Positions 735-58,878 of a stretch of DNA of 64,000 nucleotides are shown in pieces. Made by a program: the position numbers and the translations under genes. Location of the stretch: the NCBI GenBank assembly GCA_016871515.1, contig VHDE01000009.1, positions 16,077-80,076 on the forward strand. Reading direction: 5' to 3'. The DNA is from Verrucomicrobiota bacterium. GTDB lineage: Bacteria > Verrucomicrobiota > Verrucomicrobiia > Limisphaerales > SIBE01. The notes beneath the pieces are model-generated. The model saw only the letters and a list, made by a program, of their open reading frames with translations. It made no database searches and was not told the DNA's origin. The stretch's first letter is position 1; each line of letters begins with the position of its first letter.

Positions 735-802
735 ATGCGGACGGTCTGCCGATTGCAAATCGGCGATACAGCAGACTGAGAGTCTGCGTTACGATAGATC
801 CG
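735..802. repeat. palindromic repeat, family 'TGCCGATTGCAAATCGGC / CAGACTGAGAGTCTG' (single arm)
   Basis: Same words recur at 16780-16912 and 55840-55985. Confidence 0.8.
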
Positions 803-808
803 TACCTA

Positions 809-1708
809 CTATGAGGCTTTGCACTGCTCAGTCTTTACCTCGTCAATCACCTTCTCCAAGCGACGGCCGTATTCGATATAATTCGCGCGCATCGCGTCGT
901 CGTTGCTAGCTTTGGCAGTTGCATCGTGAAAGACCACGACCATATGCGGCTCGATGGAGATGCCGGCATCGTAGCCGCGCGCCATAGCGTCCTTGAGAAT
1001 GTCCCGCACTCGGCCCTGCCCTTCCCCAGGCCAATTGTAATCAGCGTCATTCTTCGCCGGATTCCAAGTCGCATCCTTAACGTGAATGTGGACGACGTGA
1101 TCGCGCACGTTGATCCAGAACTCCCACGGATCCTGTTTAGGCCACGGCTTGGCTTTGCTGCGGTCGGCGTTGAAGATTGGATTCGCCGTATCAAATACCC
1201 ATTTGAGACCGGGCGCTTTGTCGAGCAACTCCAGCGCATGTTGCCAGCTCATGCCACCGTAATTCATGCAGTTCTCGTGCACGGGCTGAATCCCGGCATC
1301 GAGGAACATCTTCGTCACTTCGCGGACGCGGCGAAAAACTTCCGGCGGCGTTTTGTATTCATCATCGCCGGGTTTGAAACTCATCACGCGAATATATTTT
1401 GTGCCGAGCCGCTGCATCCGCGGAATAGCGCGGCGAACCTCGGCCAAGGTGATGTCGAATGGATCGCTGACTTTCTTGGCCCAATTCATGACCGTGGAGC
1501 CAAAGCAATAAATGCCGACGCCAGCGGTTCCCAATTGGTCCACCGCCAGGTCAAACGCCTTGTCCGGAATGTCGTGGAGATTCGCTTTCGCAAATCCCGG
1601 CACTTCCACGCCGCGCATTTCAATGTGCCGCCAGCCGAGCTCTTTCGTCGCGGCAATCTGTCCGTCAATTGAGTTGGCGCCTTCGTCGCCGATGCCTGTG
1701 AGGATCAT
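809..1708 (-). CDS. sugar phosphate isomerase/epimerase (AP endonuclease 2-like TIM barrel)
   Basis: Protein features: HENCMNYGGMSW, WVFDTANPIF, HVHIKDA-type motif (VVHIHVKDATW), SIEPHM. Confidence 0.85.
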   Translation of the reverse strand: MILTGIGDEGANSIDGQIAATKELGWRHIEMRGVEVPGFAKANLHDIPDKAFDLAVDQLGTAGVGIYCFGSTVMNWAKKVSDPFDITLAEVRRAIPRMQRLGTKYIRVMSFKPGDDEYKTPPEVFRRVREVTKMFLDAGIQPVHENCMNYGGMSWQHALELLDKAPGLKWVFDTANPIFNADRSKAKPWPKQDPWEFWINVRDHVVHIHVKDATWNPAKNDADYNWPGEGQGRVRDILKDAMARGYDAGISIEPHMVVVFHDATAKASNDDAMRANYIEYGRRLEKVIDEVKTEQCKAS

Positions 1709-1718
1709 TGTTTTTATG

Positions 1719-1838
1719 GTTACGAGGTTACATGCGTTTCATAGTTACAAGGTCGCATGAGAGCCACATTGTTGTGACGACCGGTGGAGGCCGGTAACCG
1801 ATGCACCAATGTAACCATGCAACACATGTAACCTTGCT
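1719..1838. repeat. low-complexity imperfect repeat built on GTTACA / ATGTAAC words
   Basis: ggttacgaggttacatg...atagttacaaggtcgcatg ... caatgtaaccatgcaacacatgtaacc. Confidence 0.6.
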
Positions 1839-1844
1839 AACAGC

Positions 1845-3008
1845 TCAACGATTAAACGACTTCGTAAAATCATCCGCCGTGCTCTGGACGACTTTCTTCT
1901 CATGCTTCGATTCCGCGATAAGCTGATTCAGTTTCTTTTCCCACGCCGCGCTGTCCATCGGCAGCTCGATCGTCTGATTAATCAAAGACGAATAAAGAAG
2001 AACATTAGCGAGTTCGACGGAACCCAAACCATCCGTGCCGTGCGCGATGAGTGGCGCGCCATCGAGGATCGCATCGACGAAATTCTGCATCAAGGTCGCG
2101 TGCGGATTCGGAGCGTTCTCGATGGGAATATCAACGTTCCAGATGTCGGGTTTGGCAAAGCCGCTCTTCGACGTTTTGCTGAACTCGATCATGTCGGCAT
2201 CGTTGCGGGTGAACTTCAGCTGGTTGTTTTCGAGGACCAGCCGTCCGCGCGTTCCGTGCAATTCGAAACGGTTGCTTCCAGGCGATTCACCAGTGGACGA
2301 AATGAAAACCCCGGCGCAGCCATTGGCCCATTCCATGTAGGTCGTGATATTATCTTCGACCTCAATATTGTGATACCGGCCGAGCTGACAAAACCCGCGC
2401 ACACGCGCTGGCATCCCGCAGAGCCACTGGAGCATGTCGAGCTGGTGCAGGCACTGATTCAGCAGCACACCGCCGCCCTCGCCTTTCCAGGTCGCGCGCC
2501 AGCCGCCGCTCGCGTAATAAGCTTCTGTCCGATACCAATCGGTAATAATCCAGTTCATGCGGACCAATTGGCCGAGTTCGCCGCTCTGAATGAGTTTGCG
2601 GATTTTCACGTAGCGCGGTTCGACGCGCAGCTGGAACATGCCCGCGAATATTTGTTTGGGATTTTCTTTGTATGCGGCAAACAAACGTTCGGCATCGGCC
2701 TTGTGCGCGGAAATGGGCTTCTCGACCATGACATGAAGGCCGTTGTTCAAGGCGTCGATGCCGATGGTCGTGTGCAAGTAATGCGGCGTGGCAATGACGA
2801 TAGCGTCAATCGCGCCGGACCGGATCATCTCTTCACTTCGGTCGAAAGTCTTGAGTTGTTTGTGTTGCTTGAACGGTTCGAGGCTGGGCGCGTAAGCATC
2901 GCTGACCGCGGTCAATTCGCAACGCGAGATTTTTTTGTCGAGCAGATAGCTTGTGTGAAATTTGCCAATATTGCCCAGACCGACGACGCCGAGACGGACT
3001 TGTTTCAT
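1845..3008 (-). CDS. Gfo/Idh/MocA family oxidoreductase
   Basis: N-term VRLGVVGLGNIGKFHTSYLL, VEKPIS motif, NQCLHQLDMLQWL. Confidence 0.92.
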   Translation of the reverse strand: MKQVRLGVVGLGNIGKFHTSYLLDKKISRCELTAVSDAYAPSLEPFKQHKQLKTFDRSEEMIRSGAIDAIVIATPHYLHTTIGIDALNNGLHVMVEKPISAHKADAERLFAAYKENPKQIFAGMFQLRVEPRYVKIRKLIQSGELGQLVRMNWIITDWYRTEAYYASGGWRATWKGEGGGVLLNQCLHQLDMLQWLCGMPARVRGFCQLGRYHNIEVEDNITTYMEWANGCAGVFISSTGESPGSNRFELHGTRGRLVLENNQLKFTRNDADMIEFSKTSKSGFAKPDIWNVDIPIENAPNPHATLMQNFVDAILDGAPLIAHGTDGLGSVELANVLLYSSLINQTIELPMDSAAWEKKLNQLIAESKHEKKVVQSTADDFTKSFNR

Positions 3009-3201
3009 GTTAGGATCGTTTGTTTTTGCTCATGTTCGCGAACCGCGAGAGCCGAGTATCGCCGTGAGCGGAAAATTCGGGCAAGCTCAAAAGGTATTTG
3101 TCCGTGTGTCGTCCCGGAGGAACCGTGCGAGAATGGCCGGCGTTTAGCGCCAGCCTTCTCCGAAACAAAGTTTCGCGCATTGCGCCCATGAAACCTGGCA
3201 G

Positions 3202-3280
3202 GACAGCGCGTCTCGCCTGTCTATGCTCTTGGTGTCCGCAAATGCTGGACAGGCGGGACGCCTATCTTGCCGCGCAGGTT
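3202..3280. repeat. REPIN-like element, 'GACAGGCGNNACGCCTGTC' family
   Basis: aggacagcgcgtctcgcctgtctatgctcttggtgtccgcaaatgctggacaggcgggacgcc. Confidence 0.75.
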
Positions 3281-3332
3281 CAGAGGGCTCGAATTACGCT
3301 GGCATTATGAGCCGGAAAAAGCGCCACCAGCT

Positions 3333-4052
3333 TCATCGAAGAATCCAAGCGAGCAGCGGGGCGATGAAAAGGCTCGGCAAGTAATCGGCCAAAGGCGCTT
3401 TTTTCAGATCCAGAATAATGAGCGCAATCGAGCAAATGAGCAGGCCGCCGGTGGCATTGATCGAATCCATCAACGCTTGGTTGCGCAGGAACGGTTCAAG
3501 CGCTTTAGCGCCAAGAGTGATCGCGCCTTGATAGACAACCACAGGAATGGCCGACAGTAAGACTCCCGGTCCGAAGGTCTTTGCGAAGGCCATGGTCGCC
3601 AGACCGTCCATGACCGATTTGATCGCGAGAGTTCGGAAGTTGCCAGTCAGACCATCTTGCAAGGCGCCCAAGACAGCCATCGGCCCAACACAGAAGAGCA
3701 GCGTGCACGTAATGAAACCTTCGCTGGCTCCCTTTCCTTCGGTCGAACCGGCGTGCGAAAGGTGTTCCTTGGCATAGGCGCCGAGACGGTTCAGCAGCTG
3801 TTGCAGACGAAGAAGCTTGCCTGCCAGATTGCCTAAGATCAGCGCGAGCGCCACCAAGCCGAGCTGTTTCAGAACTTGACCAAAGCTTCCGTTAAGAGCG
3901 CTCCAGGTCGTGCTAAGTCCCACATAAACAGTAAAGACTCCCAACGCCATCTTGAGGAGCGATTGATTGGCGCGCGAGATTTCCCTGGCCACGGTTAAGC
4001 CAATAATCCCGCCAGCCAAAATGGCTGTTCCATTCAAAACAGTTCCGATCAT
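3333..4052 (-). CDS. DUF554 family membrane protein
   Basis: MIGTVLNGTAILAGGIIGL...FITCTLLFCVGPMAVLGALQDGL...MDSINATGGLLI. Confidence 0.9.
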   Translation of the reverse strand: MIGTVLNGTAILAGGIIGLTVAREISRANQSLLKMALGVFTVYVGLSTTWSALNGSFGQVLKQLGLVALALILGNLAGKLLRLQQLLNRLGAYAKEHLSHAGSTEGKGASEGFITCTLLFCVGPMAVLGALQDGLTGNFRTLAIKSVMDGLATMAFAKTFGPGVLLSAIPVVVYQGAITLGAKALEPFLRNQALMDSINATGGLLICSIALIILDLKKAPLADYLPSLFIAPLLAWILR

Positions 4053-4128
4053 GCCTGGAAACTGTGGGACTCCCCCAACCTGGCAAGGACGCATTCCACT
4101 GCGCATTCAGGGGATTTCGGGGACCCGG

Positions 4129-4419
4129 TGGAATCTAACGCCTTTCGGTAATTCAAAGAGCATTTGTCCCGTAGGGACCCGATGAAAATAGGCCGGCGTT
4201 TCAACGCCGGGGACGGCGGCCAAGCGCGCCTGAGTCCCGGATGGGACGGCTGAAGCTCAATGGACGATGCGCACAATTCGACCGTCCCTTCCGGACTTGA
4301 ACTTCTGGCCGTTTGGTTCCCGGCGTTGAAACGCCGGGCTATTTTCACTCTGTCCCTCCGGGACAACCATCTGCCACAAGGCCTTGAATTGCCGAACGGC
4401 ATTAGAGTGGAATCGTTCC
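4129..4419. repeat. large palindromic element R1 (GTCCCGNNGGGAC / CCGGCGTTTCAACGCCGG doublet with AATTCAAAG/CTTGAATT ends)
   Basis: Near-identical architecture at 9890-10112, 24850-25086, 27937-28221. Confidence 0.85.
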
Positions 4420-4553
4420 TTGCCGCTGGAGCCCCGTTGTTGGGGGAAAACGCGTGAAACATGCGGTCAAGTGTGAGAGGCGCCATCTACCCTGGAAAGT
4501 AAAAACATCATTGCAATTCCCGGCATCCGCGGGCAGATTCTCTGCACTTTGTT

Positions 4554-4631
4554 CGGGGCGTAGCGTAGCCTGGCTAGCGCGCGTGTTTCGGGTACACGAG
4601 GTCGTGAGTTCAAATCTCACCGCCCCGACCA
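4554..4631 (+). tRNA. tRNA-Pro (anticodon CGG), CCA encoded
   Basis: CGGGGCG acceptor pairs CGCCCCG; anticodon arm CGTGT-TTCGGGT-ACACG; T arm GTGAG-TTCAAAT-CTCAC; ends ACCA. Confidence 0.95.
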
Positions 4632-4710
4632 TTTCGCAGAAGTGAAGCATTGTCCGTGGCTTGACAAAGGAGCTGAACGTGTGGAAGGAACTCTGACGCG
4701 GCTTCGGAGT

Positions 4711-4805
4711 TGAAAACGTTCAACCTCCAACGCTCAACTTTCAACGTTCAGCACAGAACCGATTTGAACGTTGCGAGTTGAAAGTTGAAAGTTTGACGTT
4801 GAATT
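4711..4805. repeat. word-like imperfect inverted repeat of TTCAAC/GTTGAA words
   Basis: aacgttcaacctccaacgctcaactttcaacgttcag...ttgaacgttgcgagttgaaagttgaaagtttgacgttgaa. Confidence 0.75.
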
Positions 4806-4857
4806 GCGCCCTTCGACGCTCACTGTAGGTATGTGGTCAAAGTCACCCCTCCCCTTT

Positions 4858-4942
4858 CGTCCTCGTAGGACAGGCGTCACGCCTGTTCTGCATCTGCGTA
4901 CACGAAAAGCAGGACAGGCGGGACGCCCTGTCCTGCCAAGTT
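4858..4942. repeat. REPIN-like element, 'GACAGGCG..CGCCTGTC' family
   Basis: aggacaggcgtcacgcctgttctgc...gcaggacaggcgggacgccctgtcctgc. Confidence 0.85.
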
Positions 4943-4976
4943 CATCGAGAGGGCTAAGGAGTGAAGTCTCATCGAC

Positions 4977-7927: not shown

Positions 7928-7954
7928 TGGATGTGGATATGCAGATAGAAAGGC

Positions 7955-8066
7955 GCGGACAAGGCTGTCCGCGCTCCGTACGGTTCATGGCAGGACAGCG
8001 CCTCCCGCCTGTCCTGCTTTTGGTGTACGCAAATGCCGGACAGGCGAGACGCCTGTCCTACGACGA
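7955..8066. repeat. composite of GCGGACAAGGCTGTCCGC and GACAGGCG..CGCCTGTCC arms joined by GTACGGTTCATGG
   Basis: Read directly between batBC and batD. Confidence 0.8.
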
Positions 8067-8096
8067 GTTCATGGCGAGGATTAAAGAGAGGGGATC

Positions 8097-9889: not shown

Positions 9890-10112
9890 ATCTGGCCGTT
9901 CTCCCAAAGGGAGATTTGACAATAGCCCGGCAGTTCACTGCCGGGTTCGGTTCGCAATTGCATTTAGTCCCGGAAGGGACGGCTGAATCGTTTGCATCCT
10001 CCATTGAGGTTCAGCCGTTCCGTTCGGAACTCGCGCGCCCTTGGTCACTGTCCCCAGCGTTGAAACGCCGGGCTATTTTCAACCAGTTCCTACGGAACAA
10101 ATGCTCTTTGAT
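9890..10112. repeat. palindromic element R1 copy inserted between batD and batE
   Basis: cagttcactgccgggttcgg...agcgttgaaacgccgggctattttcaac...cggaacaaatgctctttg. Confidence 0.75.
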
Positions 10113-13567: not shown

Positions 13568-13640
13568 CCGCACGACAGGCGTCTCGCCTGTTCCAAAACT
13601 CCTTGTCGCACCCAGACAGGCGAGACGGCTGTCCCCCGAG
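13568..13640. repeat. REPIN-like element, GACAGGCG family
   Basis: acgacaggcgtctcgcctgttcc...agacaggcgagacggctgtcc. Confidence 0.8.
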
Positions 13641-13719: not shown

Positions 13720-13917
13720 AGTGCATCCCGAAGTTGTCGGTAGCGGCGGGCATCCTGCCTGCCGTAGAGGGCGTGCATCTTGCCGCCCGGAGCAACGCTT
13801 GAAAACGAGGAGGCTGCCTTCTAGTGCGTGCGCGTGATCCGCCGGGCAGGATGCCTCGGCTCTACGGCAGGCAGGATGCCCGCCGCTACGATGTGCCGAC
13901 AACTTCGGGATGCACCG
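13720..13917. repeat. large palindromic element R6 (GGCGGGCATCCTGCCTGCCG doublet, CATCCCGAAGTTG ends)
   Basis: catcccgaagttgtcggtagcggcgggcatcctgcctgccg...cggcaggcaggatgcccgccgctacgatgtgccgacaacttcgggatg. Confidence 0.9.
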
Positions 13918-16779: not shown

Positions 16780-16912
16780 TTTGGCGTAGCGCACTGCCCA
16801 GTCTGCCGTTTCGCCGGTTGCCAATCGGCAGAGTTTGGCGCGCGCTCAACCAAACGCCGGAGCGCAGGAGGGCATCCTGCGAAACAGAAACTGAGTAGTC
16901 TGCGTTACGCTA
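16780..16912. repeat. palindromic repeat R4 (CAGTCTGCCG...CCAATCGGCAG...CTGAGTAGTCTGCGTTACG), degenerate
   Basis: Shares words with 735-802 and 55840-55985. Confidence 0.6.
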
Positions 16913-19611: not shown

Positions 19612-19747
19612 AGATTATAAAAAGGAATTTCGTTGAACAGTGAAATTTGAGAAAAAGAGGACGCAAACTCTCTGTTCACTACTCGCCATGACGCTCATAC
19701 TCCCAATGCGCGCAACATGTGCCTGGAAACTCTCCATGAGCCTCCTG

Positions 19748-19842
19748 GTATGTAGTCCCGCCTTTAGGCGGCAGCATTTTGCTGGCGCCGAAAGAGATTT
19801 GCGGATAGCAACCGCACCGGCTGAAGCCGGGACTACATACCG
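19748..19842. repeat. palindromic repeat R8 (TAGTCCCGCCTTTAGGCGG...CCGGCTGAAGCCGGGACTACA)
   Basis: Read directly. Confidence 0.8.
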
Positions 19843-19954
19843 CAGCAGCAGGTTCATGGTCCCAATGCGCGTCCAATCTTGGAGGTCGAGGCTCCCCCAT
19901 GAACCGCCGGTGATAGGCAGCTCTTTTCAGGAGCTGGAACGTCCAAAATCCGCC

Positions 19955-20035
19955 AGGTTTTGGAGTGCGGCAGTCCTCTGCCGCTTTGGAACCCAACCGC
20001 GAAAAGCGGCAGAGGACTGCCGCACTCCAAGACGC
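19955..20035. repeat. palindromic repeat R7 (GGAGTGCGGCAGTCCTCTGCCGCTTT inverted doublet)
   Basis: tggagtgcggcagtcctctgccgctttgg...gcgaaaagcggcagaggactgccgcactcca. Confidence 0.95.
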
Positions 20036-24849: not shown

Positions 24850-25086
24850 TTTTAGGCCAATGCCTTTGGGTAATTCAAAGCCCTTTGGTGAGCGGTTGTC
24901 CCGGAGGGACAGGGTGAAAATAGCCCGGCGTTTCAACGCCGGGAACCGAGCTCCGGAGACCACGTCCCGAAGGGACGGCTGAATTCGGCCTCAGTCGCCG
25001 CCCCGGCGTTGAAACGCCGGGCTATTTTCGCTCCGTCCCTCCGGGACAAATGCTCTTTGTATTGCCGAAGGGCATTGGGTTTTAGG
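24850..25086. repeat. palindromic element R1, best-preserved copy
   Basis: ttttaggccaatgcctttgggtaattcaaag...tttgtattgccgaagggcattgggttttagg; inner GTCCCGGAGGGAC and CCCGGCGTTTCAACGCCGGG. Confidence 0.9.
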
Positions 25087-26545: not shown

Positions 26546-26614
26546 GCGCGGACGAAAAACCCGAAACAAATCCCGGGCCCCGAAACGTTACCGAAAATGC
26601 GGAAGGCGCCGGTG

Positions 26615-26915
26615 CGGCGCGACAGCGTCTTGGACTGCGGTGACGGAGTCTGCGAAGTCACCGCTTTGGGCGCGGATGGAACAGCCACACGCGACCACGC
26701 GCCTGTCTGGACGCTTCGCATGAACCGTACGGAGCGCGGACAGCCTTGTCCGCGCGGTTTGAGCAAACTGATAGAAATACGCGGGCAAGGCTGTCCGCGC
26801 TCCGTACGGTTCATGGTCCCAATGCGCACCCAAAAAGCGTCGAGGCTCCTCGCAAAGCGGCGATTGCGGAGACTCCATCGCCACAGCGTTTGGGATTGCG
26901 GCACTCCATAGGCAG
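26615..26915. repeat. nested composite of R7 and GCGGACAAGGCTGTCCGC arms between modC and modB
   Basis: Outer acagcgtcttggactgcgg/gattgcggcactcc; inner ccgtacggagcgcggacagccttgtccgcgc...gcgggcaaggctgtccgcgctccgtacgg. Confidence 0.85.
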
Positions 26916-27765: not shown

Positions 27766-27783
27766 CCCCTCCCCATGAACCTA

Positions 27784-27856
27784 AAGGTAGGGCGGCGTTG
27801 CTGCGCCGCCTTGGCAAACCCACGATGTTGGCGGCGCAGCAACGCCGCCCTACCGA
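27784..27856. repeat. palindromic repeat R9 (GTAGGGCGGCGTTGCTGCGCCGCC doublet)
   Basis: ggtagggcggcgttgctgcgccgcc...ggcggcgcagcaacgccgccctacc. Confidence 0.95.
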
Positions 27857-27936
27857 CGCAGTGGTTCATGGGTGCAATGAGCGAAATCCTGTTTCGGAGA
27901 AATCTCTCCCCGAAACTGCATCGTTTGGTCGAGACG

Positions 27937-28221
27937 GATTTGACTCTAATACATTTCGGTAATTCAGGTCCCCGACGCAGATGGTCCCGGAGGGACTGCG
28001 CGAGAATAGCCCGGCGTTTTAACGCCGGGAACCGAATCACGAGAGATTCGAGTCCCGAAGGGACGACTGAAATGCGTTTGAGAATCGAGCGTTTCAGCTG
28101 CCCCTTCGGGACTTGCGCGCACTTGGTCGCGGTCCAGGCGTTAAAACGCCGGGCTATTCTCACGCAGTCCCTCCGGGACAAGACAGGTTTGGAATTACCG
28201 AACGGCATCAGATTCAACTCC
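27937..28221. repeat. palindromic element R1 between modB and modA
   Basis: ctaatacatttcggtaattcagg...ggaattaccgaacggcatcag with inner GTCCCGGAGGGAC, CCCGGCGTTTTAACGCCGGG. Confidence 0.9.
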
Positions 28222-29857: not shown

Positions 29858-29985
29858 GCATCCCGAAGTTGCCGGCACATCGTAGCGGCAGGCATCCTGC
29901 CTGCCGCAGAGCCGAGGCATCCTGCCCGGCGGATCACGCGCACGCACTAGAACGCAGCCTCCTCGTTTCAAGATTTGGCAGAAAA
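29858..29985. repeat. partial palindromic element R6
   Basis: tgcatcccgaagttgccggcacatcgtagcggcaggcatcctgcctgccg...cgcacgcactagaacgcagcctcctcgttt. Confidence 0.85.
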
Positions 29986-30083: not shown

Positions 30084-33000
30084 ATGACCGTGCGTCGTTC
30101 TCCCGTTTATTACATTGCCTGCCTTCTTGTTTTGATTGTGTCCTGCCCGGCACGGGCGGCCGACTGGCCGATGTGGCGCTTCGACGCTAACAGGTCCGCC
30201 AGTTCGCCTGAGAATCTGCCCGCCGAACTCCATCTCCAATGGACACGCCAATACCCGCCTCGCGTGCAAGTCTGGGATGATCCGCTCAATCACGACTTGA
30301 TGCCTTACGATAAAGTGTTTGAACCGGTCGTGATGGGTGATCGGATGTTCGTTGGGTTTAATGATTCCGACAAGGTTGTGGCGCTGGATATTCGCGATGG
30401 TGAGGAACTCTGGTCTTTTCATGCGGACGGCCCAGTTCGATTCCCGCCTGTAGGCTGGCAGGACAAAGTCTATTTTTCGAGCGACGATGGTTACATGTAC
30501 TGTGCCGGCGCAATGGATGGGCGTCTGAAATGGAGGTTCCGCGGCGGTCCATCCGAGCGCAAAGTTCTAGGCAATGGACGGGTCATTTCGGCCTGGCCTG
30601 CGCGCGGCGGTCCGGTCTTGCGTGATGGGCGCGTTTATTTCGCGGCCAGTATTTGGCCGTTCATGGGCACGTTCATTTACTCGTTGAACGCAGAAACGGG
30701 CGAGATCGTTTGGGTGAACGACGGCACAGGCGCGCAATTTATCAAGCAACCGCACAGCGCGCCTGCGTTCGCGGGCGTCGCGCCGCAAGGCGCACTTGTC
30801 GCCACGCGAGAGAAATTGCTTGTCCCCGGCGGGCGATCCGTTCCGGCGGCCTTCGATCTGCAAACGGGCGAATTCCGTTACTTCCATATTAACGATGGCG
30901 GCAAAGGGACCGGGGGATCGTTTGTGGTGGCGAATGAAACCGAGTTTTTCGTTCACACACGGCTGCGCGGTGTTCGGGCTGCGAATCTAAAGACTGGCAA
31001 GACCACCCCATTCACTCACGGCGAGCCCGTGCTGGATGGGTCTCTGCTTTATGCCGCGACGGAAAACAAGGAGGGCAGGTTCATTCACGCTGTCGACACC
31101 TCTGAAGTTGTCCCGTGGGAGGATGAGCCGCAGTGGGCGTTGAAATACCTCTGGGACATCAAGGCCGATGCTTCTGGTGACCTCATCAAGGCAGGTCAAC
31201 GGCTCTACGCCGCAGGCACGAATTCACTGACCGCCATCGAGGTCAATTCACAGCAGCCGCGAATTGCCTGGTCGCAACCGGTGCAAGGTGAAGTGCTGCG
31301 CTTGCTGGCTGCGCGCGGGAAATTGTTCGCCGTAACGGCCGACGGGCGCATTATGGCTTTCGGAGGCAGCGATGCCCCTCTCCCCATCCGATGGGAAGAG
31401 GGGAAAGACCGGGGGAATCTGCGATCTAATGACCGCTCTCCAAAGGAATATTCCCTCTCCCCATCGGATGGGGAGAGGGTTAGGGAGAAGGGCATCCCGG
31501 CTGGAAAACAATCCGCCAAAGCGATGGCCAAAGCGAAATCCATATTGAAACAGGCGGGCACGGATGAAGGTTATGCGCTCTGGTTCGGTGTGGACGACGG
31601 TGAACTGATCGAAGCGCTGCTCGTGCAATCGAAGCTGCAGATCGTGGCCGTCGATCCCGACGCCATGAAGGTGGATCGCCTCCGGCGCCGCTTTGACGCG
31701 TCCGGTCTCTACGGCACCCGCGTCGTGCTGCATGCAAGTGATCCAGTGAGTTTCAAGGCGCCGCCGTACATGGCCAATCTGATAGGCATTGGCGAATCGT
31801 TCGTCTCCCAACTACGGGATCGGCAAGTGTGGCAGGCCATTTACGAATCCGTGCGTCCATACGGCGGCGTGATATGGGCGCCGGCCGAAGACCGCACGCA
31901 ATCCGAGTTGGCCTGGTTCATCCAGCGCGCGAATCTCGAAAAAGCAAAACTACACCCGTCGGAGGGGCATTTGCTCGTCATTCGCGACGGCGCATTACCT
32001 GGCGCGGCGGATTGGACGCATCAGTACGGCGACATTGCCAACACCGTAAAATCCGACGATGCCCGAGTGAAAGCGCCGCTCGGGTTGCTCTGGTTTGGCG
32101 GTCCGTCGAACATGGACGTATTGCCGCGTCACGGCCACGGTCCACCCGAACAGGTAGTGGGCGGGCGGATGTTTATCCAAGGCATGAGCAGCATGAGCGC
32201 GCGCGACGTGTACACCGGACGGCTTCTCTGGCACACCGATTTCGGCAACCTCGGCACGTTTGGAATCTATTACAACGAAACTTATACGAACACGCCATTG
32301 AGCACCGCTTACAATCAGAAACACATCCCTGGTGCGAATGGGCGCGGCGCCAATTACATTGCGACCGAAGATGCGCTTTACCTTGTCGCGGGCAGTTCGT
32401 GCCTGGTTGTCGATGCTAGAACGGGCAAAGTCCGCAAAACAATTTCGATGCCGCCACGGCCCGGCGGGACCGAGGCTCCCGAATGGGGTTACATTGGCAT
32501 CTACGAAAACATTCTCCTGGGCGGTTACGGGTTTGCTCATTACCCGCAAAAGTTCACAAGCTTCGAGAAGACCGACGCCGCGACAATCGAGGATTATTCC
32601 GGAAGCGATGGTTTGGCTGCGTTCGACCGGCATACTGGCCGGCTTTTGTGGCGGGTTCAACCGCGTCACAGCTTCATCCATAACGGCATTGTGGCCGGCA
32701 ATGGCCGTGTTTATTGCCTCGATAAACTTCCGCAAAGCGCGGTGGACAAACTTAAGCGCCGCGGCGCCAGCGCTATGGTCAATCATCGGTTGCAGGCGTT
32801 CGATATTCAGTCCGGCAAGCTGCTCTGGGAGGACGAGCGAAACATCTTTGGCACTTGGCTCGGTTATTCCAAACAGCACGATGTCTTGCTGCTGGCGGGC
32901 GCCAGCGCCAGCGACCGGCTTTCCGACGAAGTTGGCCAAGGCATGACGGCGTATCGCGGAACAGACGGCAACGTGCTTTGGCAGGATTTGAAACGCAAAT

Positions 33001-34160
33001 ACACGGGACCTTGTATCTTGCACAACGATCTTATTCTCACGAGCGCCAATTCCTACGAGGCGTCGAGTGGCGCGTTCAAATTGCTTGATGGGACGCCTTA
33101 CCTGATTGAAAACCCGCTCACCGGAAAGCTCGAACCGTGGCGCATCTCCCGGACGTACGGCTGCAACAATATTATTGCCAGCGAAAACCTCCTTACCTTC
33201 CGTTCGGGCGCCGCGGGTTTTTACGATCTGGTTTCGAAGAGCGGCACGGCCAATATCGGCGGCTTTAAGTCTGGCTGCACGGCAAATCTCGTCGTCGCCA
33301 ATGGCGTTCTCAACGCGCCCGATTACACGCGCACGTGCAGTTGCGCCTACCAAAACCAGACTTCCTTGGCCCTGGTGCACATGCCGGAAATGGAGCTGTG
33401 GACTTACAGCCACCTTGGTCTGAATGCTGAGGCTGGCGAGCGGATCGAACGGGTCGGCATTAACTTCGGCGCGCCCGGTGACCGGCGGGCCGAGGACGGA
33501 ACACTTTGGCTGGAGTATCCAACGGTCGGCGGTGATTCGCCGGGGCTTGGCATCAAGGTCACGGGCAGCGACGTCGCTTATTTCCGTCGTCACGCTTCGC
33601 AGGTGAGCGGCGGCCCGGGATTGCGCTGGGTGGCCGCCTCGGGGCTCCGCGATTGCAAAACTATAACGATCACACCCGAGATCGTCCGTCCGAGATTGAC
33701 CAGACCCACGGCCACGCCGGACGATGAGGAAGATGAGGTCATTATTATTAGTACAAACGCTCCGAGTAGCGTCGGATCAAGCGGCGCCCGGACCGGGACC
33801 GGACGAGGAGGCTTCGGTCGCGGCCGAGGAGGCAACTCAGGGATAAACAATGCCAGCGCCAAGCCGCCGCGCACATATTCGCCGATGCCTTACACAGTGC
33901 GCTTGTACTTTCTCGAGCCAGACGAACTAAAATCCGGGCAACGCGTCTTCAGTGTAGCTCTCCAAGGCCGATCGGTGTTGGAGAATCTTGATATTGCGAG
34001 GGACGCCGGAGGCAATAATCGGTCGATGGTAAAGGAGTTCAACGGCGTGATCATCGAAAAGGATCTGGATCTTACGTTCACCCGCGCATCCGGAACACAA
34101 GCCGGTCCAATTCTCTCGGGGATTGAGCTGATTGCTGAACAGTCCGCAGCCGGGAATTAA
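30084..34160 (+). CDS. large PQQ-binding-like beta-propeller protein with embedded Rossmann/methyltransferase-like domain
   Basis: ADWPMWRFDANRSASSP, repeated ALDIRDGEELWSFHADG-type blades; central LQIVAVDPDAMKVDRLRRRFDASGLYGTRVVLHASDP. Confidence 0.88.
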   Translation: MTVRRSPVYYIACLLVLIVSCPARAADWPMWRFDANRSASSPENLPAELHLQWTRQYPPRVQVWDDPLNHDLMPYDKVFEPVVMGDRMFVGFNDSDKVVALDIRDGEELWSFHADGPVRFPPVGWQDKVYFSSDDGYMYCAGAMDGRLKWRFRGGPSERKVLGNGRVISAWPARGGPVLRDGRVYFAASIWPFMGTFIYSLNAETGEIVWVNDGTGAQFIKQPHSAPAFAGVAPQGALVATREKLLVPGGRSVPAAFDLQTGEFRYFHINDGGKGTGGSFVVANETEFFVHTRLRGVRAANLKTGKTTPFTHGEPVLDGSLLYAATENKEGRFIHAVDTSEVVPWEDEPQWALKYLWDIKADASGDLIKAGQRLYAAGTNSLTAIEVNSQQPRIAWSQPVQGEVLRLLAARGKLFAVTADGRIMAFGGSDAPLPIRWEEGKDRGNLRSNDRSPKEYSLSPSDGERVREKGIPAGKQSAKAMAKAKSILKQAGTDEGYALWFGVDDGELIEALLVQSKLQIVAVDPDAMKVDRLRRRFDASGLYGTRVVLHASDPVSFKAPPYMANLIGIGESFVSQLRDRQVWQAIYESVRPYGGVIWAPAEDRTQSELAWFIQRANLEKAKLHPSEGHLLVIRDGALPGAADWTHQYGDIANTVKSDDARVKAPLGLLWFGGPSNMDVLPRHGHGPPEQVVGGRMFIQGMSSMSARDVYTGRLLWHTDFGNLGTFGIYYNETYTNTPLSTAYNQKHIPGANGRGANYIATEDALYLVAGSSCLVVDARTGKVRKTISMPPRPGGTEAPEWGYIGIYENILLGGYGFAHYPQKFTSFEKTDAATIEDYSGSDGLAAFDRHTGRLLWRVQPRHSFIHNGIVAGNGRVYCLDKLPQSAVDKLKRRGASAMVNHRLQAFDIQSGKLLWEDERNIFGTWLGYSKQHDVLLLAGASASDRLSDEVGQGMTAYRGTDGNVLWQDLKRKYTGPCILHNDLILTSANSYEASSGAFKLLDGTPYLIENPLTGKLEPWRISRTYGCNNIIASENLLTFRSGAAGFYDLVSKSGTANIGGFKSGCTANLVVANGVLNAPDYTRTCSCAYQNQTSLALVHMPEMELWTYSHLGLNAEAGERIERVGINFGAPGDRRAEDGTLWLEYPTVGGDSPGLGIKVTGSDVAYFRRHASQVSGGPGLRWVAASGLRDCKTITITPEIVRPRLTRPTATPDDEEDEVIIISTNAPSSVGSSGARTGTGRGGFGRGRGGNSGINNASAKPPRTYSPMPYTVRLYFLEPDELKSGQRVFSVALQGRSVLENLDIARDAGGNNRSMVKEFNGVIIEKDLDLTFTRASGTQAGPILSGIELIAEQSAAGN
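31374..31494. repeat. CCCTCTCCCCATC-GATGGGGAGAGGG repeat inserted in frame inside CDS 30084-34160
   Basis: cccctctccccatccgatgggaagagggg...ccctctccccatcggatggggagagggttagggagaagggc. Confidence 0.9.
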
Positions 34161-35915: not shown

Positions 35916-35984
35916 TCTCGCCGGTTGCTTGCATAAATGCGGACCACGAGTTTCCTAACGCGGGGCGCCGCCGCAACCAAAACG

Positions 35985-36105
35985 GCGCGCGGATATTCTT
36001 GTCCGCAGCCATTGGAAACGAAAAACTGGCGCTCGAATTTTCGAGATCGGCCAGAGATTCGGACGTTGCTGCGGACAAGAATTTCCGCGCTCCGGAGAAT
36101 CGTCC
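35985..36105. repeat. inverted repeat GCGCGGATATTCTTGTCCGCAGC...GCTGCGGACAAGAATTTCCGCGC
   Basis: Read directly upstream of CDS 36196. Confidence 0.85.
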
Positions 36106-37387: not shown

Positions 37388-37515
37388 TCAGGAGCGCAGC
37401 GTTTACGCTGCAGAAACGTTCCCACGTTCGCAGAGTCGAAAGGTTCCGAAGAGTTTCGAGCCATCCGGCAGTTTCACATTCTGCAGCGTGAACGCTGCGG
37501 TCCTTGACCGATAAG
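37388..37515. repeat. palindromic repeat R5 (GCAGCGTTTACGCTGC...GCAGCGTGAACGCTGC)
   Basis: Same layout at 55660-55775. Confidence 0.9.
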
Positions 37516-50048: not shown

Positions 50049-50135
50049 TGTGCTGGAGCGGCGTCTCGTAAGAGCGCCGCTACAGTAGCTTTGGCGGGGA
50101 GAATGCGGCGCTCTTACGAGACGCCGCTACAGCCA
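50049..50135. repeat. palindromic repeat R10 (GGCGTCTCGTAAGAGCGCCGCTACAG doublet)
   Basis: gcggcgtctcgtaagagcgccgctacag...gcggcgctcttacgagacgccgctacag. Confidence 0.9.
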
Positions 50136-50220
50136 GAAAAAAAGACGCGCCCTAAAATTGGGATCGGACCGCGAAAGCGATTCGAGCAGAGGGCCAAGAA
50201 CAATTAGTCGGTCGCACGCT

Positions 50221-51625: not shown

Positions 51626-51698
51626 CGTGAGCTGGTAGAGATCGGTCAGCAGAGCGGAGGGAGGTCGGCGTTCGTAGATAGATAATCAGAAACCACTC

Positions 51699-52259: not shown

Positions 52260-52414
52260 TCCGGCCAGCGCCGAAACACTTAGTGTAATCCATTAGTTGC
52301 TCTTGTTCACGCGAGGATGAGAGAGCGGCAAATCAGGCTCGGCCTGCCTTGGAAGACCATAAGGCCGAACATGCTTTTGGCTTTGCCCCGCGAAATGTCC
52401 GCCCTCGATCTGCC

Positions 52415-55400
52415 TTACTGATCCTTCACCGGTGCAAACGCCGTCAACACTTTGCCATCCGTCCCGTTCCAAACGCGCAGCACGCTGTCTTGTCCGCCGG
52501 CTACGACAATCTTCCCATCGGGCGTCACGGCAGCCGAGTGCATGAAATCACTGACGCCTTCGAACGAACGAACGTTATCTCCATTCTCTTTGAGCCGGCG
52601 CACTTGATTGTCGCCGGAACAGGCCACGGCTTGATCAGTTGGTCCGACGAACGCCACTGTGGTTACTTCCTTGGTAAAGCCCTCGATCGTTTTCTTTCGT
52701 TCGCCGGTCACCAGATCCCAAATCTTGATGACATTGTCTGCGCCAGAACTCGCCAGGATGCGCCCGTCACGCTTCCAACTGACGCCCAGGACGTGATGCG
52801 TGTGGCCTTCGAACGACTTTACAATCTTTCCTGTCGCCAGCTCGACGACCTTCACAAATTTATCCGCCGCTCCCGAAGCCAGATACTTTCCATCGGCTGA
52901 AAAATCGAGACTGAATACGGCGTCGCTGTGAACGTTCTTGATTTCTTGCGCGAGCTTGCCGTCGGCCACTTGCCAAATCTTGATTTCGCCGCCGCGGGTC
53001 GGTTCTCCGCTGCCCGTCGCGAGCAGCTTGCCATCGGGACTGAACCGCAACGCGTTGACGCGGTCCACAATAAGAGAAGCGGAATCGCCAGTTCCAATTA
53101 CCGCTTCGAGTTTCCAGGAGGGGTTCAAGTCCCACGCGACTGCCATTTGCCCCGCTGCCACTGAGATCAACCCTCCATCCTTGATAAAGGCGACGCCAAT
53201 GACTGGCGCCTTGTGGCCGGCGAATGTCTCGAAGGCCGCGCCATTCTCTGCGTTCCACGTATGCACTAAATTGTCATCGCCAGCCGTGCTCAACGTCAGG
53301 TTGTCCGACGAGAACGCCGCGGCGCGAATCGGTTTCTCAGCGTCGGCCGCGTTCTTCTTCGCCAGCTGCAATTCGGCGTCGGCCTTTTTCTGATCAACCT
53401 CGGCGGTCTGAAGCTCAGATTTCGCGGCCGTCACTGCTGCGCTGGCCTGTTCGACAGATTTCTTCGCCAGTTGCAGTTCGTTTTCGGCGGTGGATTTGGC
53501 GAGCTCCGCCTTTTTGAATTCCTTCTCAGTGTCATCGACGCTTTTAGTCGCTGCGGTAATGGCATTGGTCGCCTGTTTATGTTTTTCAGCTGCCTCAGCC
53601 GTGATCTTGTCGAAGAGCGGTTTGAGCCGGCCGGCGGCAAAGGCTTTGGCGGACAGTTCCTCGATGGCTTTCTCGGCGCGGCTCCGAGCGTCACTGGCGA
53701 GCTTCGCCTTTGCGGTCGCGTCTGCCGCGATGCGTTCGGCCACTTCTTTGGTCTTCGCAGCGATAGCGGCTGCTTCGGTTGCCAGTTTTGCGGCGGCCGC
53801 CTTGGCCGCGTCGGTCGATTCGTGGTCGGCAGCCGCTTTCGTTTTTGCGGCGACTGCGGCGGCGTCGGTCGCATTCCGTTCGCTGATCAATCTCGTTTCG
53901 GCGGCTTGTGCAGCGGGCATCTGTGCTTGAGCGGCGGCGCCGACCGCGGCCTTCGCGTCTGCCTCGGCTTGCTTGGACGCCTTATCCGCGGCTTGGAAGT
54001 CCTCCGTCACTTTTTTTGTTTCAGCTTGCAAGGTTGCGAGCGCTTTTTCTGCATCCGACTTGGCGGTTTTAGCCGCGTCGAATTTCTTTTGTTGTTCGGC
54101 GAAATTCTTCTCGGCGGTTGTTAGCGCTTCTGTTCCTTTGGTGACGCGTTCAGTTTCTTTCTTGTGTTGCGTCTCGGCAGTTTGCAGGGCGTTCTTCCGA
54201 TAATTGACTTCGCTGGCGGCAAACGCCGAGGTTCGTTCCGCCTCCAACGCCATTTCCTGGGCGTAACGGTCCCCCTTCAATTCCGCAACCGCTTTTCCAT
54301 CCTTCAGGTCCCAAAGCTTGGCTATATTGTTCAGGCCCACCGAAGCGAGTTTCTTTCCATCGGGGCGAACAGCGATGCTGGCCACGGGAGCACCATGTTT
54401 CATTTCTTTGATCGATTCGCCTTTCTCAACGTTCCAATGGCGGATGGCACCGTCTGCACTCGCTGAAATGATTTCGTTGGTCGCAGACAGAAGTGTGTCC
54501 AATGAAACGATCGCAGCTTCGTGCCCTTTCAGTTCTTTGGCCAACGTCATTTCACCTTTAGCTGACTCCGGCAGTTTCCAAAGGCGAACGACTTTGTCAT
54601 CGCCTCCGGAAGCGACTTGTGATGCCTCCGTGAGCCACGTTATTGCCTTCACGTCGCCAGATGCTTCAACTTGTGAGAACATCTCCCCGCTCTCGATGCT
54701 CCAGATGCGAAGCTTTTTCTCGGCGGCGGCGAGTTTTGTGCTATCGCGGGAAAACTTCAGAACCGTGGAGGCTTGCTCCGCGCCGGCCAGCGCTTTGGCT
54801 TCCTTGCCATTCGCCAAGTCGAACAGTTTGATGCGGCCATCTTCCAGGGCCGCCGCGAGCCACTTCCCGTCAGGACTGACTGCAACCGATTTCCATATGT
54901 TGGTGGGCGCATCTGAAAACACGAGCTTTTGGACGTTCTTCGGGCGGCGCCAAAGCTTGGCTTGGCGATAATCGCCCGAGGCGAGAAGAGTGCCGTCGGG
55001 ATTAAAGGTCAGCGAATGCACCATATCGCGATGCGCGACTTGGCGGTTCTGGTAGATGCTTTCAAGATTAGGATCGGTCAGCCGGGCCACGAATTGGCCG
55101 GAGGGAACATGATAAATGAAAATCTGATTGCCGCGGCCGCAGGCGGCAAATTGGCCATCGGGAGTCAAGGCCACGGCATAGATCGGATTGAGAGTTGCCG
55201 GCAAGGGTCTCCATTCGATCGGGGTGATGCCGCGCACTTCGCCTTTAGCGCCTTGATCAATCCAAAGTTTCAGGAGCCCCAATTCGTCCGGAGTCAAATT
55301 AAGCGCGGCGACTTTGTTATCGCGTGGCGGCATCATCGGGTCGGCCTGGTGGGCCGCCGCCTTGAGCAAGAGACTGTCCGAACCTTTGCCAGGAACGATG

Positions 55401-55657
55401 GCTGGTCCGGATTCGCCGCCTTTGAGAATGGTCTGGGGAGTTTCGAGCACCAGGTCTGCTTTCGCTTTCGTTTGGTTGTGGCAGGCGAGGCAGTTGTTTT
55501 TGAAGATGGGCAGAATCTCCTTTTCAAAATCAACCGTCGTCGTTCGCTTGATCTCGGCGATGGTAATGCCCGAGGCTTTGGTGTCAGCGGGTTTTTCCGC
55601 AGCCTGCCCAGACGTCAGACTGATCGCAAGACAACCAGCCGTCCAAAGGGATCGCAC
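52415..55657 (-). CDS. PSCyt1-like haem-c + WD40 propeller + ~300 aa Ala-rich coiled coil + WD40 protein (GTG start proposed)
   Basis: VDFEKEILPIFKNNCLACHNQTKAKADL; WD40 blades; EVNYRKNALQTAETQHKKETERV... coiled coil; signal peptide MRSLWTAGCLAISLTSGQA. Confidence 0.88.
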   Translation of the reverse strand: MRSLWTAGCLAISLTSGQAAEKPADTKASGITIAEIKRTTTVDFEKEILPIFKNNCLACHNQTKAKADLVLETPQTILKGGESGPAIVPGKGSDSLLLKAAAHQADPMMPPRDNKVAALNLTPDELGLLKLWIDQGAKGEVRGITPIEWRPLPATLNPIYAVALTPDGQFAACGRGNQIFIYHVPSGQFVARLTDPNLESIYQNRQVAHRDMVHSLTFNPDGTLLASGDYRQAKLWRRPKNVQKLVFSDAPTNIWKSVAVSPDGKWLAAALEDGRIKLFDLANGKEAKALAGAEQASTVLKFSRDSTKLAAAEKKLRIWSIESGEMFSQVEASGDVKAITWLTEASQVASGGDDKVVRLWKLPESAKGEMTLAKELKGHEAAIVSLDTLLSATNEIISASADGAIRHWNVEKGESIKEMKHGAPVASIAVRPDGKKLASVGLNNIAKLWDLKDGKAVAELKGDRYAQEMALEAERTSAFAASEVNYRKNALQTAETQHKKETERVTKGTEALTTAEKNFAEQQKKFDAAKTAKSDAEKALATLQAETKKVTEDFQAADKASKQAEADAKAAVGAAAQAQMPAAQAAETRLISERNATDAAAVAAKTKAAADHESTDAAKAAAAKLATEAAAIAAKTKEVAERIAADATAKAKLASDARSRAEKAIEELSAKAFAAGRLKPLFDKITAEAAEKHKQATNAITAATKSVDDTEKEFKKAELAKSTAENELQLAKKSVEQASAAVTAAKSELQTAEVDQKKADAELQLAKKNAADAEKPIRAAAFSSDNLTLSTAGDDNLVHTWNAENGAAFETFAGHKAPVIGVAFIKDGGLISVAAGQMAVAWDLNPSWKLEAVIGTGDSASLIVDRVNALRFSPDGKLLATGSGEPTRGGEIKIWQVADGKLAQEIKNVHSDAVFSLDFSADGKYLASGAADKFVKVVELATGKIVKSFEGHTHHVLGVSWKRDGRILASSGADNVIKIWDLVTGERKKTIEGFTKEVTTVAFVGPTDQAVACSGDNQVRRLKENGDNVRSFEGVSDFMHSAAVTPDGKIVVAGGQDSVLRVWNGTDGKVLTAFAPVKDQ

Positions 55658-55659
55658 TC

Positions 55660-55775
55660 CGATTCGGACCGCAGCGTTTACGCTGCAGAACCGTTCGCAG
55701 GTTCGAACCGTTCCAAAGTTTCGGAGGCGGCCGGCAATTTCACGTTTCTGCAGCGTGAACGCTGCGGTCCTGCGC
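55660..55775. repeat. palindromic repeat R5
   Basis: gaccgcagcgtttacgctgcagaaccgttcgcaggttcgaacc...ttctgcagcgtgaacgctgcggtcc. Confidence 0.9.
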
Positions 55776-55839
55776 GCAACAGACGTTCTCGCCTCGCGCT
55801 CGAACTGATCTCGCGCAGGAATCTCGGAGCGGTACGTGT

Positions 55840-55985
55840 TTGGCGCAGCGCAGACTTTCGGTCGGCTGTATCGCCGATTTGTAATCGGCATACCGTCCGC
55901 ACCTTCGTAGACGCTCGAACTTGCGAGCGATCTGCAGAATACAATTCTGCGATACAGCAGACTGAAAGCCTGCGCTACGACGAAG
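55840..55985. repeat. palindromic repeat R4, near-complete copy
   Basis: gcgcagactttcggtcggctgtatcgccgatttgtaatcggca...ctgcagaatacaattctgcgatacagcagactgaaagcctgcgctacg. Confidence 0.9.
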
Positions 55986-56309
55986 GCAGGCGCGCTAACC
56001 ATGTGCGCGCGGCGCGCTGTCTTTGCCACGCCAAAGACGGATAATAGATTCGTGGTTGGACGAGAGCCGCCCGTTGTGATGCTCTTCGAGGTTGGCCACT
56101 GACGAAGAAGCCGAAAGGTGATTGAGTAATTTCGCAGTTTCATTGGACGATTGCGCATCTGAAATTATCCGCTACGTTGGAGGGTGGCAAGCATTTGCGC
56201 AGGAGAACTTGCGAGAACTTGCTGAACTTGCTTGCATCGGGCCTCTCCAAGGAGATACAACTTGGGGGAATTAATCCGCAATGCCGACTATAACCTCACT
56301 TAGCTTCGC

Positions 56310-58787
56310 ATGAGGGGAATGGCACATCTGAAGCCGGTGCTGCTGCTTCTCGCGGTCGCTCTATTCTTCCCGCTTGCCGCTCGCAGTGCCGACACCGAAC
56401 AACAAGCTATCGCTACGGCGGGCAATCGGATCGTTGAGGTGACGGTTGACCCTAAGTCAATTCAGCTGAATGGACGCAACGAGCGATTCGGCATTCTTGT
56501 TCACGGCAAAACGGCCGCTGGAAATTTCATCGACCTAACGCGTTCATCGCGTTTTCAAGCAAGAACTCCCGAGTTAGTTTCCGTTTCCGCAAGAGGCCGA
56601 GTGCGCGGACTTCGGGATGGCAAGGGGCTGATTGAAGTGGAAGCCGCCAATTCGAAACATGAAGTCGAGGTGACCGTCGCTCAAACCGGGATTCCGCGTC
56701 GTTTTAACTTTGAGGATGACATTACGCCGTTATTCAGCCGGTTCGGTTGCAATTCCTCGGGCTGCCACGGGAAGGCCGAGGGTCAAAACGGCTTTAAGCT
56801 TTCTGTGTTCGGCTATGATCCGTCTGCCGACTACAAGGCTTTGGTGATGGAAAGTCGTGGCCGCCGCATCTCTGCCGGCGCGCCCGAGCATAGTTTGTTA
56901 TTGCTGAAACTTTCCGGAACCATGCCGCACGGAGGCGGGCCGCGCATCCATCCAGGAACGCCAGAATTTGAAACCATTCGGGATTGGATTGCGGCCGGTG
57001 TGCCGTTTGGCGATGCGAAAGATCCGAAAGTCGAAAGCATCGAGATCGTCCCTCGTGAACGCATCTTATCGACGGGGGCGCAACAACAATTGCGCGTCAT
57101 GGCTTCCTATAACAACAACGGAAGGAAGATCGACGTGACGCATCTTGCTCAATTTCAATCGAACAACGAATCGCTCGCTCGCGTGGACGAAGATGGTTTG
57201 GTTTCCGTCGGTGAAATTCCAGGACAGGCCGCGGTCATGGCTCGCTATATGGGAAGCGTCGCTGTGTTTCATGGTGTGATTCCGCGCTCCGAACCAATTG
57301 CCGAGTATCCGCAATTGCCGGAACACAATTTCATAGACCAGCTCGTTCACGCGAAGCTCAAAAAGCTGAACGTGCGCCCGTCTGACTTGGCCGATGATGC
57401 CGAGTTTCTGCGGCGCGTTTATCTCGATGTGATTGGAACATTGCCAACCGCCGCTGAAGCGAGAAAATTCCTGACCGACCAACGATCCAACCGTCGCGCA
57501 CGGTTGGTGGATGAGCTGTTAGAACGTCCGGAATACGCCGATTACTGGGCGTTGAAATGGGCGGATCTTCTTCGCGTGGATCGCCAAGTTCTCGCGCACA
57601 AAGAGGCCTACTCGTACTACAAATGGATTCGCGATCAGATCAGCAGCAACAAGCCGTACGACCGCATCGTGGGCGAGTTGTTGACGGCCGAGGGGCCTCT
57701 TGCGGAAGTTCCCCAAGGCAATTTCTACAAGGTTTTCCAAAAACCGGGCGACGTGGCCAGCACTCTGTCTCAGGTGTTTCTAGGGGTGAGAATCGCCTGC
57801 GCCGAATGCCACCATCACCCGTTCGACCGCTGGAGCCAGACGGATTACTACGGCATGCAGGCGTTCTTTCAACCAGTCAGCCGCAAAAAGGTGTCTCTGG
57901 GCGAGATGCTCTCGTCCGAAGGCAATCCCGAAACGAAAAATCCGCGCACCGGCGAAAAGGTTTATCCGCACACCTTGGGCGCCAAGCCGCCTTCCGCAAA
58001 CCCGCCAGGCGAACTCCGGAAACTGTTGGCCGATTGGTTTACAGCGCCGGAGAATCCGTGGTTCTCGCGCAATCTGGCCAATCGTCTCGTCGCCCACTTC
58101 TTTGGCCGTGGCCTCGTCGAACCGGTCGATGATGTGCGAGCCACTAATCCGCCGAGTAATCCCGAACTGCTCGATGCGTTGGGCGCTCACGTTGCTACGA
58201 CTGGATTCGACCTGAAGCAAGTCATCAGGACGATTACTGCTTCGAGGACTTATCAGCTCTCTTCACGCCCGAACGAAACGAATGCACGTGACGAACAAAA
58301 CTACTCGCGAGCGCTCTTCAAACGATTGCCTGCGGAGGTGCTCCTCGATGCGATCTGCCAAGCCACAGGCATCGGCGAAAAATTTGGCGGCGTCCCCTAC
58401 GGTTCGCGAGCGATTCAACTTTGGGACAGCGATGTCGCCCATTATTTTCTGAAATTGTTTGGCCGGCCCGTCCGCAAAACGGCATGTGAATGCGAACGCA
58501 ACGCCGAAGCGAGCATTGCCCAAGTGTTGCACCTATTAAATTCCCCGGAGATCCAAGCCAAGCTCAGCCACGAGTCTGGCGCATTGGCCAAACTTGAACG
58601 AACCATTCCCGAGAATAGCGCTTTGGTGGAGGAGCTGTACTTGACCTGTTACAGCCGGTTCCCGACGGACAAAGAACGCGAAGTCGCCGAACGCCATATG
58701 CGCGTTTCGAATGCCAGCCGGCGCGCCGCCGTCGAAGATTTGCAATGGAGCATGATCAATTCGCTGGAGTTTATCTTTAATCACTGA
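56310..58787 (+). CDS. Ig-like (BIG2-type) + DUF1549 + DUF1553 protein
   Basis: DDITPLFSRFGCNSSGCHGKAEGQNGFKLSVFGYDPSADY, IACAECHHHPFDRWSQTDYYGM, NRLVAHFFGRGLVEPVDDVRATNPPSNPELL. Confidence 0.93.
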   Translation: MRGMAHLKPVLLLLAVALFFPLAARSADTEQQAIATAGNRIVEVTVDPKSIQLNGRNERFGILVHGKTAAGNFIDLTRSSRFQARTPELVSVSARGRVRGLRDGKGLIEVEAANSKHEVEVTVAQTGIPRRFNFEDDITPLFSRFGCNSSGCHGKAEGQNGFKLSVFGYDPSADYKALVMESRGRRISAGAPEHSLLLLKLSGTMPHGGGPRIHPGTPEFETIRDWIAAGVPFGDAKDPKVESIEIVPRERILSTGAQQQLRVMASYNNNGRKIDVTHLAQFQSNNESLARVDEDGLVSVGEIPGQAAVMARYMGSVAVFHGVIPRSEPIAEYPQLPEHNFIDQLVHAKLKKLNVRPSDLADDAEFLRRVYLDVIGTLPTAAEARKFLTDQRSNRRARLVDELLERPEYADYWALKWADLLRVDRQVLAHKEAYSYYKWIRDQISSNKPYDRIVGELLTAEGPLAEVPQGNFYKVFQKPGDVASTLSQVFLGVRIACAECHHHPFDRWSQTDYYGMQAFFQPVSRKKVSLGEMLSSEGNPETKNPRTGEKVYPHTLGAKPPSANPPGELRKLLADWFTAPENPWFSRNLANRLVAHFFGRGLVEPVDDVRATNPPSNPELLDALGAHVATTGFDLKQVIRTITASRTYQLSSRPNETNARDEQNYSRALFKRLPAEVLLDAICQATGIGEKFGGVPYGSRAIQLWDSDVAHYFLKLFGRPVRKTACECERNAEASIAQVLHLLNSPEIQAKLSHESGALAKLERTIPENSALVEELYLTCYSRFPTDKEREVAERHMRVSNASRRAAVEDLQWSMINSLEFIFNH

Positions 58788-58878
58788 AGGCTGTGACGAT
58801 GATCGAACAGCATTGTGGCAAATGGCCGTCCCGGCGGGACGAATGCTTTTGGGTTCACGGAAACGCACAGGAGATAAT

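Follow-up and report, generated by a model that had tools for sequence, protein, structure and literature searches.

The 64,000-nucleotide stretch analysed here (hereafter, the window; C9:16077-80076) comes from a Verrucomicrobiota genome assembly (5.73 Mb, 246 contigs, 92%-complete) and carries many families of inverted palindrome doublets. These doublets are very probably REPINs, non-autonomous pairs of repetitive extragenic palindromic (REP) sequences that are copied by family-specific REP-associated tyrosine transposases (RAYTs) of the Y1 (HuH) type. They have a common architecture and multiple copies per family, family-specific doublets flank RAYT genes and diverge together with them, and two of the sites occupied in the window are empty in relatives. 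The genes carried by the window (PSD1/PSCyt, NamZ and WD40) are consistent with a verrucomicrobial / Limisphaerales setting, and the close relatives of the transposases of this genome are from verrucomicrobial metagenome-assembled genomes, including Limisphaerales / subdivision 3.

Doublet families in the window and the genome

Doublets were defined as inverted pairs whose arms are hairpins themselves and were searched for by a de novo scan. Genome-wide counts of doublets, arms and frame pairs (see below) were made on 1.19 Mb of the 5.73 Mb, and a dinucleotide shuffle of the sequence served as the control for doublets and arms. The scan detected 14 doublets in the window, a density about twice the genome average, and 113 in the genome sample compared to none in the shuffled sequence. 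The arms had 2-62 copies per family, and those of all families were absent from the shuffle except for one with a single copy, thus chance palindromes could be ruled out. The absence of a regular array with a constant repeat likewise ruled out clustered regularly interspaced short palindromic repeats (CRISPR). The 113 doublets have the architecture of REPINs, i.e., a palindrome of 20-40 nt in two inverted copies with a spacer. Based on crude gene calls, 72 of them are intergenic, compared to 12.6% of random positions. The high copy number and mostly extragenic location of REPINs were also found (as many as 62 arms in 1.19 Mb), with the small families falling below high copy.

The number of families depends on the threshold. 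At 65, 70, 75 and 80% arm identity, the arms formed 2, 7, 9 and 10 clusters in the window and 5, 11, 17 and 22 genome-wide. The coexistence of at least ten families, as proposed in an initial annotation of the window, is matched by the 9-10 window clusters at 75-80% identity. All the families it listed are real, each being located within ~40 nt of the position given, either as an inverted doublet or in the form of single or diverged arms. Its description of the sequences as unrelated was overstated, because many families have a common foot with differing stems and they grade together, with 95 of the 113 doublets merging by single linkage at 65% identity. The G[TG]AG foot starts 124 of the 226 arms, compared to 7.4% of random 20-mers, and the GGAG form is used by about half of the families. 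R1 (see below) and F10 have no foot of this type, unlike REPINs and GTAG REPs.

Family-specific doublets flank RAYT genes

The genome has five PF01797 matches and a sixth, weak match obtained with the clade profile. Two RAYTs (C13:59027-59764 and C44:268-963; loci L005 and L003) have identical family-specific repeats on either side and scored 81.3 and 101 bits against NCBIfam NF047646, the cut-off of which is 80. The C13 RAYT is flanked on both sides by the CAGACTG family (F13) of the window, and has identical direct repeats of ~240 nt on both flanks. The identical direct repeats around the two genes suggest a recent event, or a duplication, that involved the whole unit.

To this clade belong 133 loci from relatives and GTDB genomes (a few fetched twice), in whose alignment (A1) the HuH and Tyr/Asn columns are invariant (H147, H149, Y208 and N212); the catalytic Tyr was assigned on its presumed equivalence to Y115 of E. 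coli TnpA-REP. Doublets were detected within 250 nt of 62 of the 133 loci (both sides in 25, one side in 37), and of 1 of 44 other Y1 loci. A second, weaker-scoring Y1 branch had doublets at 14 of 32 loci, including the F06-type REPtron L264. The families were associated with RAYTs of their own, that is, F13 and F21 with the C13 and C44 genes of the same genome (F13 also with L166), and F02 (L176 and L173), F06 (L264 and L253), F08 (L163), F15 (L128), F17 (L248, L102 and L133) and F22 (L131) with those of relatives. F02, F06, F08 and F13 each flank the RAYT with 3-8 copies per locus.

A comparison of 59 distinct loci showed that REP similarity tracks protein identity, increasing from 0.32 at 30-40% identity to 0.93 where identity exceeds 80%. 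The Mantel r was 0.406 (permutation sd 0.040, 0/2000 permutations), a correlation to which shared ancestry within a few genomes contributes in part. The one-to-one pairing of transposases and repeat families, which had been put forward for testing, appears across relatives and is not seen within the genome, where two REPIN-flanked RAYTs stand against ~11-20 families. Most families therefore look orphaned here. Presumably their transposases have been lost, and besides RAYT loss, repeated loci that collapsed at the ends of contigs or the missing 8% of the assembly could account for their status; the C44 RAYT gene starts 268 nt from a contig edge.

Two other candidate drivers were dropped. The Y1 gene at C45 (L261) has a weak link to F07, with a single doublet close by, and the long C-terminal Y1 proteins (C160, C152 and C25) have no flanking doublets. 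Separately, clade RAYT domains were observed in frame within very long open reading frames (ORFs) of 560-1040 aa (L100 G003:C42, L162 G006:C328, L122, L089 and G005:C686), which by eye are helicase-like and restriction-subunit-like. Complete REPIN-RAYT units may have inserted in frame at these places.

Several observations weigh against the doublets being RAYT-copied REPINs. Among the clade and Y1 loci compared, F01, F09, F10, F12 and F14 have no clear transposase partner, the 92%-complete assembly has only two clade RAYTs, and no doublet was detected at 71 of the 133 clade loci. The association counts are inflated by related loci and by repeats within a locus. In addition, the foot variants given by Di Nocera 2013 (PMC3733652) do not include GGAG.

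Empty sites in relatives

The comparison of empty and filled sites revealed two window sites that are empty in relatives. The F10 doublet (CCCTCTCCCCATCCGATGGGGAGAGGG; 31376-31479, de novo scan), which the initial annotation had overlooked, is in frame within the ORF at 30084-34160 and is missing from the orthologues in four relatives (G002, G004, G005 and G006). In the G002 orthologue, the linker is shorter at this position, the orthologues of G004 and G006 are without the doublet, and G005 (L321, G005:C539) has a single GTGG-footed REP at the linker, which as a side reading may represent a second, independent insertion at the same site. The intergenic block at 26550-26860, with the F08 doublet, is absent in G002, where both neighboring genes are retained. 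The insertion junctions are inexact because the genes of the relatives are just ~70-79% identical. For the 19.7 kb locus, the orthologous genes in relatives are on separate contigs or have a different gap. Judging from these sequence comparisons, the doublets are likely mobile.

It is improbable that the doublets are miniature inverted-repeat transposable elements (MITEs) derived from insertion sequences with a DDE transposase, the terminal inverted repeats of which fold by chance. The inverted arms and the size of 60-200 bp are compatible with MITEs, as are the five families without a Y1 partner. However, the arms are palindromic themselves and have a conserved foot, the family-specific doublets border Y1 transposase genes, with which they have diverged in parallel, and no obvious target duplication was found at the single clear intragenic site (F10).

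The RAYT-based origin would work as follows. A REPIN consists of two inverted REP palindromes, in most cases bearing a G[TG]AG foot. By analogy with E. coli TnpA-REP, RAYT-type Y1 (HuH) transposases would recognise the foot and the hairpin in single-stranded DNA and copy the REPINs. Each transposase lineage would be flanked by a REP sequence of its own, with recognition specific to the pair. Duplication and divergence of RAYT-REP pairs, together with transfer and later RAYT loss, could then generate many families with the same architecture and different stems. R1 would be the same sort of element on the IS200-like Y1 transposase branch. We infer that the doublets are copied by such transposases. 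The shared mechanism proposed at the outset holds because family-specific doublets flank RAYT-class Y1 genes and co-diverge with them and because relatives show empty sites. The accompanying idea, that structure propagates rather than one sequence lineage, is not supported, as every family is a lineage of its own tied to a transposase lineage, and structure is therefore not copied without sequence.

R1 and the Acido-Lenti-1 motif

R1 doublets are located at 4158-4376, 24890-25059 (the best copy) and 27976-28191, with a degenerate one at 9923-10110. Two of them hold matches to the Rfam family RF01687 (Acido-Lenti-1), at 4319-4365 and 25002-25048, with scores of 39.2 and 37.2 bits (gathering score, 37). 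RF01687 was detected in 26 of the 30 genomes searched, with up to 116 matches in one and ~4 per Mb overall. In the relatives, it occurs beside IS200-like Y1 genes at 19 of 40 loci (L281-L320), frequently as two inverted copies immediately beyond the gene (L283, L292, L297, L301, L306 and L318). At the gathering score, there were 14 matches in 89 kb near IS200-like Y1 genes, ~40 times the genomic density.

This placement at transposase ends, which looks new, argues against a stand-alone small RNA (sRNA) gene, and the sRNA label of RF01687 is probably wrong. In the simplest reading, Acido-Lenti-1 is the end hairpin of IS200-like Y1 elements and R1 is a REPIN-like derivative. No IS200-like Y1 was found among the Y1 matches of the window's genome, therefore R1 is an orphan here too. 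An R1-related sequence (TAATGCCTTTCGGTAAT...) was observed inside F06 REPs at C12:11219-11435 and C12:17288-17486 (L061), apparently as a nested insertion.

Less probable still than MITEs is that the doublets are host structures under selection (terminators, mRNA-stabilising elements or RNA elements) with convergent similarity, given that the mostly intergenic location of the doublets and the Rfam entry of R1 as an RNA are countered by dozens of near-identical copies per family, the insertion in a coding gene, the empty orthologous sites and the R1 copies at transposase ends. The doublets may have acquired a host role later.

A frame shared by different REPIN families

About nine families are surrounded by a common frame, CATGAACC...GGTTCATGG-NNN-CAATGCG. 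In the genome sample, 28 CATGAACC...GGTTCATG pairs were ≤260 nt apart compared to 0.84 expected, and the frames enclose doublets or arms of F05, F06, F07, F08, F09, F10, F14, F17 and F22. The frame continues into its flanks, with CTCTCC at one end and GG-NNN-CAATGCGCG at the opposite end. Units stack via a spacer of ~53 nt, for example GGTTCATGGTCCCAATGCGCG...CCCCATGAACC between the F06 and F07 doublets (19851-19905, plus strand). The exact pattern was found 53 times in the window's genome, 73 times in G005, and 8, 6 and 4 times in G003, G006 and G007, while none was found in G001, G002 and G004, and the reversed control gave no match. At least five genomes belonging to the taxonomic family thus have the frame, and it was not found in two congeners. 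Other doublets are enclosed by the frames of G005, G003 and G006, and one G006 frame contains an insert that is not a REP. Among the frame loci examined, including L368-L387, the distribution in relatives was patchy.

The distance from frame to foot is nearly constant within a family, suggesting that a copy and its frame spread together. A RAYT as the carrier was dropped, as no frame was found surrounding RAYT loci. Integron attC sites were weighed for the tandem frames and set aside, no search being aimed at their motif or an integrase. We tentatively consider, as a possibility short of the probable, that the frame (CTCTCCATGAACC...GGTTCATGG-NNN-CAATGCGCG) is a landing or carrier platform for the ~nine REPIN families, with the core exchanged and the shell kept. 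In that case, REPINs of different transposases would have been captured at, and then copied with, one common modular unit. No description of the frame was found in a literature search confined to open papers, and a frame around different REPIN families looks new.

Distribution of the doublets along the window

The GACAGGCG-type doublets (F04/F05) reported at four sites are real, and their coordinates were corrected to 3198-3272, 4866-4937, 7990-8064 and 13572-13635 (the last F04, de novo scan). Position 7955, given as one of the starts, instead belongs to an arm of the GCGGACAAGG family, i.e., the single GCGGACAAGGCTGTCCGC arm of F08 (7954-7977, minus strand), which is linked via GGTTCATGG to the doublet at 7990-8064. 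For the CAGACTG family (F13), the exact string TGCCGATTTGTAATCGGCA reported initially is absent, and diverged copies are present at 682-794 (CGTAACGCAGA; degenerate, repeat D4, 75% identical to 55868-55980), 16784-16911 (degenerate) and 55842-55982 (GCCGATTTGTAATCGGC).

The F02 family (GTAGCGGCGGGCATCCTGCCTGCC / GCATCCTGCCTGCC), reported at two sites, has a doublet at 13740-13889 (de novo scan) and only a single GCATCCTGCCTGCC arm at 29882 (arm region 29882-29936, plus strand). Similarly, the F07 doublet (TTGGAGTGCGGCAGTCCTCTGCCGC / GGAGTGCGG) was confirmed at 19960-20030 (de novo scan), with only a diverged relative at 26615. The neighboring F06 doublet (GTAGTCCCGCCTTTAGGCGG) is at 19747-19841 (de novo scan), and arrays of this family flank the RAYTs of L264 and L253. 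Two doublets lie in CATGAACC...GGTTCATG frames, those of F08 (GGAGCGCGGACAGCCTTGTCCGCG, 26719-26815), which is the one empty in G002, and F09 (GTAGGGCGGCGTTGC, 27774-27870, with arms at 27786-27854; de novo scan). The de novo scan also called the doublets of F11 (GCGCGGATATTCTTGTCCGC, 35983-36094), F12 (GCAGCGTTTACGCTGC, 37390-37504 and 55666-55770) and F01 (GCGGCGTCTCGTAAGAGCGCCGC, 50052-50133).

Comparison with known systems

REPINs and RAYTs, with REPINs as inverted REP pairs (Bertels and Rainey 2011, PMC3116915), and REPtrons (PMC6006769) have been published, and the mechanism is therefore no new principle. The window resembles these systems in its spaced, intergenic inverted REP pairs and in the Y1 HuH transposases flanked by their own REP. 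It differs in having far more families than transposases per genome, a foot that is often GGAG, identical repeats of ~240 bp around the C13 RAYT, and an outer frame common to many families. Several REP families per genome, repeat-specific REPtrons and in-gene copies were reported by Di Nocera 2013 (PMC3733652), who also found the verrucomicrobium O. terrae to be REP-rich; REPIN/RAYT systems have thus already been reported for Verrucomicrobia. The doublets share with those GTAG-tagged families the GTAG foot, dimers, coexisting families, REPtrons and in-gene copies, whereas their stems, the GGAG variant foot and the orphan families are different. The source paper of Acido-Lenti-1 gives it as an RNA motif (Weinberg 2010, PMC2864571), and two R1 copies match it above the gathering score; what is listed there as RNA occurs here as a dispersed repeat and, in the simplest reading, forms the hairpin at the ends of IS200-like Y1 genes.

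With many REPIN families, paired transposases in close relatives and empty sites, this lineage provides a direct setting for RAYT-REPIN specificity and turnover. We also suggest that one Rfam RNA family (RF01687) be re-annotated as transposon DNA, and the frame adds an apparently undescribed shell common to different REPINs. The bacterial interspersed mosaic elements (BIMEs) of enterobacteria are REP mosaics with extra conserved motifs, and thus likewise combine REPs with additional motifs, whereas here one extra motif encloses many REP families.

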